Of a stretch of DNA of 64,000 bases, positions 6,097 through 50,543 are shown piece after piece. Each line of letters begins with the position of its first letter. Position 1 is the first letter of the stretch. The stretch is from Propionispora vibrioides. GTDB lineage: Bacteria > Bacillota > Negativicutes > Propionisporales > Propionisporaceae. Location of the stretch: positions 1 through 64,000 of the forward strand of contig NZ_FODY01000025.1 in NCBI RefSeq assembly GCF_900110485.1. The letters run 5' to 3'. Below the pieces are notes generated by a model. It searched no databases, had not been told where the DNA came from, and worked only from the letters and a program-made list of their open reading frames with translations. The position numbers were made by a program, and so were the translations under genes.

Positions 6097-6164
6097 GTCA
6101 AAATTCACTTTATTTTCCCGGAAAATATATTTTTCTTTCCCCCTTTTTAGCTATTTTTACCGCT

Positions 6165-6285
6165 AGTACCTTATCAGTCTTACCTATGTCCAATATATGC
6201 GGCTCCTCCGCCTGGGGAGACGAAAAAAATCTCTATCAGCCTTTCCTCTGTTTTAAGTGATGCAAGGCACTAGTGCCCCATCAAC
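6165..6285 (-). repeat. Degenerate family-B repeat
   Basis: This part of the 738-base gap between purA and the next gene resembles the reverse complement of family B (compare 50383-50543): CTCCTCCG, a CATAT-like centre and GACGAAAAAAATCTC appear in the right order, followed by a CACTAGTG palindrome. It is much decayed. The rest of the gap holds the purA leader and an AT-rich tract near 6100-6160. Confidence 0.45.
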
Positions 6286-6495
6286 TCTGAAAGTACAATT
6301 TCTTCACGGACCTTTTTCCGTAAGGCTTCGTTATCACCGGCTTACCTAAACTCGATAGGTGTGCTTCTTTGTCCTGCCTTGCAAAAAAATCCCCGCAAAT
6401 TTAATTTGCACTTTCAATTCGCTGGAGCACCAGGTTTTAAAATCCGGCAATGAGGCATACTACCTACAGCACACGATGATTACGAGGACGACACT

Positions 6496-18319: not shown

Positions 18320-18475
18320 AAGCAGTACGTCCGACGGGGTTATAGAGCATAGCGCTGAAAGTTTTTGCCGTCAGGCGCGATGGAGGAGCTGCGCATATCG
18401 GACATATGTAAAGCGACGATAACAAAGCCTGGCGGCAAAAAGACCGGTGACATACTTCATAACCCCGCTGGATGA
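18320..18475. repeat. Family-B intergenic repeat (copy 2)
   Basis: About 156 bases with outer arms around GGGGTTAT and ATAACCCC, an inner stem GTTTTTGCCGTCAGGC with GCCTGGCGGCAAAAAGAC, and a conserved middle with GGAGGAG, CATATCGGACATATG and CGACGA. The outer arms differ from those of the other B copies while still pairing. Confidence 0.8.
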
Positions 18476-18486
18476 GGATTAGTTAC

Positions 18487-19389: not shown

Positions 19390-19829
19390 GGAGAACCTCC
19401 CAAAGCTTATTAGGGCTTGTTTGTAAAATATCCGAAACAGTCAGTGCTTTGTAAACCCTGGTTCTATCGTGTTCTTACGAGATCTTTTCCGCCCTGTTTT
19501 GTTGTCGTCGACTTACATATTCCCGATATGCACGCCTCCTCCGCCTCGCAGGACGAAAAATCTCTCGCAATTCATTCTATAGGCTTAGAGTTTACAGACC
19601 ACTAGTTGACGCTGATTTTTGTGCCATAGTTCATTAATATTTTTTGAGATAGGGGCCGCTATTCCGGCAAAATGTTGCTGCGTCTAACGTAACTATCCCG
19701 CGCTTAAGATCATTTCGTTACTTTACAAACAAGCTCTACTTATATTTTATTTATGGCACTACAAAATAAGACATGAATCAGGCGAAAAGAATCGGTGTGC
19801 CTGTTGCTTGTACCTGTAAAAAGAAAAAA
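19390..19829. other. 440-base gap with two decayed repeats
   Basis: No coding sequence is supported. 19468-19570 resembles family B in reverse (GAGATCTTTTCCGCC, GTCGTCGACTTACATAT, CTCCTCCG, GACGAAAAATCTCTC). 19640-19700 resembles part of family A in reverse (GCCGCTATTCCGGC followed by TTGCTGCGTC). The remainder is AT-rich. Confidence 0.5.
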
Positions 19830-22291: not shown

Positions 22292-22325
22292 GTATCTTCC
22301 ACCTTACTTTAAATTTCGTTGCCTT

Positions 22326-22487
22326 AGGAACCGCTGATGTAATGAACCTGTCGGCCTGGCGAGAGATTTTTCCGCCTGGCAAGGAGGTTAAAACCAGGAA
22401 TAGTTGGGCTATTTCAAGGTTTGGCTGACGCAGGCAGACGGAAAAAGATCCGTCAGGACGCACAGTGTGAATACATTAGCGGTTCCT
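22326..22487. repeat. Family-A intergenic repeat (copy 2)
   Basis: 162 bases, same length and order as copy 1, with terminal inverted repeat AGGAACCGCT-ATG. Internal segments GGCCTGGCGAGAGATTTTTC, GGCAAGGAGG and GACGGAAAAAGATCC match copy 1. It fills the gap upstream of ychF. Confidence 0.85.
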
Positions 22488-22536
22488 TATATCTTTGTCT
22501 ATTGTAGAGTATCACTGCCAGAAATTCAATAGGCAC

Positions 22537-50382: not shown

Positions 50383-50543
50383 TAGTGTCTCATCCGGCGG
50401 AAAGATGTAGTATGGCACCGAGAATTTTTACCGTCAGGCAAGACGGAGGAGCGCGCATATCGCCTATATGCAAGTCGACACAACGAAGACTGACGGCAAA
50501 AAGGCCAGTGGTCTGCTGCAGATTTCTGCCGGATGAGACACTA
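50383..50543. repeat. Family-B intergenic repeat (copy 3)
   Basis: 161 bases with a perfect 16-base terminal inverted repeat, TAGTGTCTCATCCGGC and its complement. Inner stem: TTTTTACCGTCAGGC with GACTGACGGCAAAAAG; middle with GACGGAGGAGCGCGCATATCG and CGACACAACGAAG in the same order as copies 1 and 2. Confidence 0.9.

Follow-up and report, generated by a model that had tools for sequence, protein, structure and literature searches.

MITE-like hairpin elements of Negativicutes share a conserved, strand-specific folded core with elements in Streptomyces plasmids

Bacterial MITEs are usually seen as passive hitchhikers that are defined by their ends. Among the described systems, RUP of Streptococcus pneumoniae resembles the repeats analyzed here in being small and non-coding, in having more than 100 copies and a TA target, and in carrying terminal repeats that match an IS630-family transposon; its mobilization by IS630-Spn1 has been proposed (PMC2229807). 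However, RUP is 107 bp long, has a 9-bp terminal repeat, occurs in one species and is given no further signature of structure or function in the review (PMC2229807), whereas the conserved strand-specific core described here spans phyla and terminal-repeat types. The bcr1–bcr3 repeats of the Bacillus cereus group are likewise dispersed, MITE-like and intergenic, with a comparable copy number (PMC3446304, PMC6542083), but they have a TTTAT motif, are restricted to this group and have not been reported to contain the loops found here. Correia/NEMIS, ERIC and other bacterial MITEs share the size of about 100–200 bp, the terminal TA and a stem loop formed by the whole element (PMC2229807). REP/REPIN sequences with their RAYT (Y1) transposases are also high-copy extragenic palindromes, but REP units measure 20–40 bp (PMC3733652), while the hairpins here have a CTAG target and terminal repeats of the DDE type. 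The structured RNAs of Rfam 15 are similar in stem covariation and conserved loops; no bacterial family among them matches, however. For Correia/NEMIS, ERIC and other bacterial MITEs, we know of no invariant tandem-GA loops and of no cross-phylum core with exchanged ends. A search of open-licence papers returned no published description of the present repeats.

Within the 64-kb stretch of DNA analyzed (the window), a covariance-model search gave seven superfamily matches at distinct sites. A sequence-only reading of the window had listed three good copies and two decayed ones. All five are present, the two decayed ones both on the minus strand, but this inventory overlooked the element at 6271–6432 and did not connect the related hairpin at 22325–22488. 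The features are as follows:

50383..50543, plus strand: full hairpin element of 161 bp, TAGTGTCTCATCCGG...CCGGATGAGACACTA, target C-TA-C
50425..50437, plus strand: 5' side of the inner stem of the 50383 copy, TTTTTACCGTCAG
50440..50450, plus strand: conserved 5' internal loop of the 50383 copy, AAGACGGAGGA
50477..50487, plus strand: conserved 3' internal loop of the 50383 copy, GACACAACGAA, one base shorter than the consensus GACGACAACGAA
50490..50502, plus strand: 3' side of the inner stem of the 50383 copy, CTGACGGCAAAAA
22537..22699, plus strand: full hairpin element of 163 bp, core intact
18320..18486 (approximate limits), plus strand: hairpin element, core intact, outer arms different, terminal TAGT lost
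19442..19604, minus strand: hairpin element of the TAGTGGTCTGTAAACTC subfamily, core match of 87 bits
6271..6432, minus strand: degenerate hairpin element, newly listed here, core match at 6304–6396 with 56 bits
6140..6272 (approximate limits), minus strand: decayed hairpin abutting the 6271–6432 element, with a CAC-TA-GTGCC junction
22325..22488, plus strand: "family A" hairpin, TAGGAACCGCTGATG..., a distant variant of this core architecture

The copy at 50383–50543, for which the earlier reading was written, lies about 60 bp upstream of a methionine-synthase-like ORF and is missing two conserved core bases. The core pattern is expected to match zero times by chance (shuffles), and single copies fold 7–8 SD below dinucleotide shuffles. 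At 6140–6432, two hairpins abut on the same strand with a CAC-TA-GTG junction that is common to both. As the ends of an element can themselves form the CTAG target, the end of one element may serve as the insertion site for another. A cluster of three tRNA genes is located at 5–240 on the minus strand of the window.

The elements are mostly 155–165 bp long, start with TAGT, end with ACTA and are predicted to fold from end to end. While the outer stem is completely different between subfamilies, the inner stem follows the type TTTTT-N8 pairing with N8-AAAAA. The 5' loop AAGGCGGAGGA is followed inward by three base pairs that form a short stem, then by an internal loop of GCG/TAA and by CATAT/ATATG closed by CGGAC; there is also the 3' loop GACGACAACGAA, and the 5' and 3' loops are both purine-rich. 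In the MFE fold of one strand, single G-C pairs separate 2x2 loops of G and A, so that the "loops" resemble GGA/GAC tandem-GA modules arranged in an array; the complementary strand folds less stably, by 13 kcal/mol. An intrinsic terminator was rejected by sequence inspection, which showed that neither stem is followed by a T run on its 3' side, whichever strand is considered.

Collecting copies across the genome and its relatives, as the sequence-only reading had proposed, revealed a family larger than it had reported. The source genome (G000; 4.43 Mb, a Negativicute) contains at least 141 matches with E<0.01, a lower bound from 150 scored candidates that the true number may exceed, with covariance-model E-values that are rough owing to a short calibration. 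The copy number is patchy, with matches in 20/61 genomes of the class, some having tens of copies and most none. Named genomes of Sporomusa, Pelosinus and Lucifera contain exact matches to the strict core pattern. In a second core form, B', AGGAG...TGACT takes the place of the 3-bp stem and the GCG/TAA loop; this form has one extra GGA/GAC module at that position (L080, L233, L302, L306, L342, L343), which looks as though modules of the loops could be gained or exchanged. Family A, with ends TAGGGAACC and the core GGCAAGGAAGTAAAACC...GGTTTTGCTGACG, comprises dozens of copies at many loci of G000 and its congener G002 and is a distant relative of the main family by core architecture. A third core form occurs in G012, G039 and G046; like B' and family A, it follows the same overall plan.

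The insertion sites show a clear preference. The TA is flanked by C on the left at 50/72 sites and by G on the right at 43/72, giving CTAG at 33/72 sites, while CTAG holds just 1.5% of the TAs in the window. IS630 prefers TA in CTAG, as stated in the title of a 1991 paper by Tenzen and Ohtsubo that PMC2170065 cites. Most sites are common to G000 and G002; G002 has an empty site at L044, G000 has empty sites for two G002 copies, and internal deletions occur at several sites. At a CTAG target, a TA duplication is indistinguishable from duplication-free insertion, which is slightly favoured by the empty site of L044. In G203, a relative outside the source genus, nine identical copies were found; the copies of G203 and G133 combine quite different ends (GGAACTGGCAAG) with the B' core, and 17/20 of them are flanked by perfect 3-bp duplications, TTA/TTA or TAA/TAA. 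Identical copies with such target duplications show that the elements are mobile. As is typical of MITEs, they are shorter than about 300 bp, multicopy and without coding capacity and have terminal inverted repeats, along with target-site duplication (G203/G133) and insertion polymorphism (G000 versus G002).

IS630-family (DDE_3) transposons of the related genomes G036, G049 and G083 are candidate mobilizers of the hairpins. All are inserted at CTAG, HTH and DDE_3 reading frames were confirmed in the G036 and G049 elements, and the terminal repeats match those of three hairpin subfamilies (TAGTACTCCATCAA and TAGTACTCCACCAA in G036, TAGTGTAGTGACAT in G049, TAGTGACTTGCCAAAGTTTTGAATTA in G083). 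For example, the G083 end agrees with the hairpin end at 20/22 bases beyond TAGT (0/3000 shuffles). As expected of IS630-derived MITEs, terminal repeats are common to a coding IS630 element and a non-coding one with a TA (CTAG) target. The core is absent from the IS630 elements tested (G036, G049 and G031). G000 and G002 have no DDE_3 transposase at present, which is in keeping with insertions that are mostly common to both. IS partners were looked for and not found for the G203-type (GGAACTGGCAAG) and Streptomyces-type (CTAGGGGGTGTCGTTTGGATC) ends; unpaired matches to the GGAACTG ends of G203 were broken hairpins or unrelated DNA. G000 also encodes two Y1 (RAYT-like) transposases, at C29:51081-51422 (L174) and C16:1122-1457 (L175). 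The former gene has a hairpin copy at a distance of about 1 kb, which is probably a coincidence; in this genome, no sign of a link between these genes and the hairpins was seen.

With a G203 element as query, a match in Streptomyces plasmids covered exactly its core. In this actinomycetotal genus, the core was found in 25 plasmid records, mostly in unannotated intergenic stretches. The Streptomyces copies are GC-rich hairpins of up to about 190 bp, often at CTAG, with other ends (TAGGGGGTGTCGTTTGGATC and AGACCGG...) and the same two loops. Viral contigs carry the core with further ends. The phage records searched gave no match. One viral-contig copy (L347) has the G036 IS630 end at 16–17/20 bases; another (L344) is close to the end of its contig, so that its limits are uncertain. 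In both Streptomyces and viral copies, the same core is joined to unrelated stems and ends. From diderm Firmicutes to Streptomyces, the loops have hardly changed, whereas stems, ends and probably transposases have been swapped. The same folded core in distant bacteria, in changing surroundings, suggests that the core itself does a job that spreading of the elements needs.

The compensating stem changes pointed out by the sequence-only reading exist, and they extend to the wider family. Across 29 G000 copies, both sides changed in 12/21 pairs, 93.9% of cells were paired compared with 83.9% after shuffling, and the score was 0.315 versus 0.150; each whole-structure measure exceeded at least 499/500 shuffles and all slid controls, significance being judged against shuffles. 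For 61 further copies from six genomes, in an alignment fitted to the model, the corresponding values were 14/21 pairs and 0.438 versus 0.182 (0/500 shuffles). By contrast, the internal loops AAGGCGGAGGA and GACGACAACGAA are about 90% invariant in 100 distinct cores (mostly 82–99% per position, except for a few variable positions at the edges), and the flanking 3-bp stem in the same cores varies as GGC/GCC, GCC/GGC, GAC/GTC, GGT/ACC and GTC/GAC. Covariation between loop positions was weak, and a single pair was suggestive (four sequences with A.C instead of G.A). When 13 representatives with a left-arm identity of 53% were compared, Watson-Crick pairing reached 66% with their own arms, 51% with swapped arms and 47% with shuffled ones.

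The two strands are not equivalent. Mismatches in the arms were G.U in 248 cases and A.C in 36, counts that are partly non-independent between related copies. The ratio was 33:10 (p=6e-4) for 13 representatives below 75% identity, which were picked greedily instead of by single-linkage clustering at 72%, where all copies fell into one cluster; it was 34:11 in family A, 16:5 in G203/G133 and 23:2 in the Streptomyces and viral copies. Mutation alone predicts equal G.U and A.C on either strand, and the excess of G.U therefore indicates that one particular strand folds. Covariation in several helices and a strand asymmetry in which G.U is tolerated and A.C is not are features of structured RNAs. 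Selection on a folded strand, as postulated earlier, is thus supported by stem covariation, invariant loops, arms that co-vary across subfamilies and the G.U excess. The accompanying suggestion to search Rfam led to no family above gathering score or chance: with Rfam 15, neither the window copy nor an L086 copy had any match at E up to 10, and a Streptomyces copy had only matches far below threshold, nearly all of them miRNA precursors.

Resident copies behave differently from the family as a whole. In ten orthologous pairs with recognizable loops, the loops have diverged by 10.9% (25/230) and the arms by 7.4% (82/1115), compared with 3.3% (111/3347) for the flanks of 14 pairs, which are partly coding DNA; the divergence of resident orthologous copies thus equals or exceeds that of their flanks. 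Genes run into the element in sense orientation in 16 cases and in antisense in 17. Neither purifying selection on resident copies nor an orientation bias, as expected of a host regulatory element, is therefore seen. This divergence and the random orientation imply that the copies are not maintained for the host and that the constraint must act on lineages that are still moving. The earlier statement that the repeats are "not just a decaying transposon" holds in part, since the elements are MITE-like (CTAG target, insertion polymorphism, 3-bp duplications, IS630 terminal repeats) and their resident copies do decay. A transposase and target-site duplications had been expected to replace covariation if the repeats were plain MITEs; duplications and IS630 partners were indeed found, yet so was covariation.

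We consider it likely that the elements are MITEs of at least IS630-type transposons with a conserved strand-specific folded core, a putative RNA that aids their propagation. As non-autonomous elements, they would imitate the terminal repeats of DDE transposons, at least of the IS630 family, whose transposase may act in trans and insert them into TA, mostly within CTAG. Unlike in an ordinary MITE, an internal module, consisting of a long one-strand hairpin with two near-invariant purine-rich loops, would be under strong constraint, while stems and terminal repeats could be freely replaced provided that they pair. The folded strand would be an RNA transcribed from the element or by read-through or, less likely, single-stranded DNA. 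It might promote the spread or persistence of the element, for instance through binding to a protein of the cell or through protection of the transcript. A role in the element's own spread or persistence rather than for the host is suggested by the unconstrained resident copies and their random orientation. A DDE transposase requires the ends only, and the retention of the core is thus not accounted for by this explanation. More tentatively, the core could be a selfish RNA module that has spread across phyla and exchanges its stems and terminal repeats so as to make use of different transposases, with the tandem-GA loop motif recruiting a conserved cellular or transposon factor required for spread; we regard such a non-coding mobile RNA, in place of a passive MITE, as a possibility below even odds. 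The loops offer an RNA motif with many natural variants that is open to testing, and an RNA-level component would be added to the parasitism of DNA transposons.

Plain MITEs, in which only the terminal repeats matter, would account for the IS630 matches, the target duplications and the unconstrained resident copies. Quasi-palindrome correction is established knowledge, and template switching could copy one arm onto the other and imitate covariation around a core that is inherited baggage. However, such correction cannot yield the G.U to A.C asymmetry of 248:36 and would erase the loops by making them complementary; instead, they have remained unpaired and nearly invariant, and in Streptomyces they reappear in combination with unrelated stems and ends, so we hold this explanation to be improbable. 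A folded strand that works as single-stranded DNA, for instance after extrusion or as part of the lagging strand while the element transposes, would fit the perfect whole-element hairpins, the mobility and the asymmetry, as G.T is better than A.C in DNA too. We nevertheless judge it unlikely, since IS630-type transposition uses double-stranded DNA (PMC2170065) and the strand counts, made by hand among the matches listed for two nearly closed genomes with the origin assumed at base 1, were 15:15 and 12:8. Still less probable is a SINE-like origin, in which the core would come from a functional RNA gene of the cell that continues to be selected, with the dispersed copies as its snapshots: constraint is indeed visible between families and not in resident copies, but all the copies examined possess hairpin arms and ends like those of transposons, none was seen as a single-copy locus, and searches of Rfam yielded nothing above chance. 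Finally, although copies are mostly intergenic and often near gene ends, and although 40–51% of bcr repeats lie in transcripts and bcr3 correlates with mRNA decay (PMC3446304), a host-beneficial regulatory or mRNA-stabilizing RNA, kept for its effect on neighbouring transcripts, is very unlikely and was rejected given the absent orientation bias (16 versus 17), the divergence of orthologous copies including their loops, and the very patchy copy numbers between relatives.

Individual insertions in G002 lie next to recognizable genes. At L143:15529-15622, a hairpin is inserted in a palindrome that resembles a terminator and lies immediately upstream of a glyceraldehyde-3-phosphate-dehydrogenase-like gene; the site is empty in G000 (L237). 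Another hairpin (L125:10742-10835) immediately precedes an apparent RNase P RNA gene; its counterpart in G000 (L253) has lost most of its interior.
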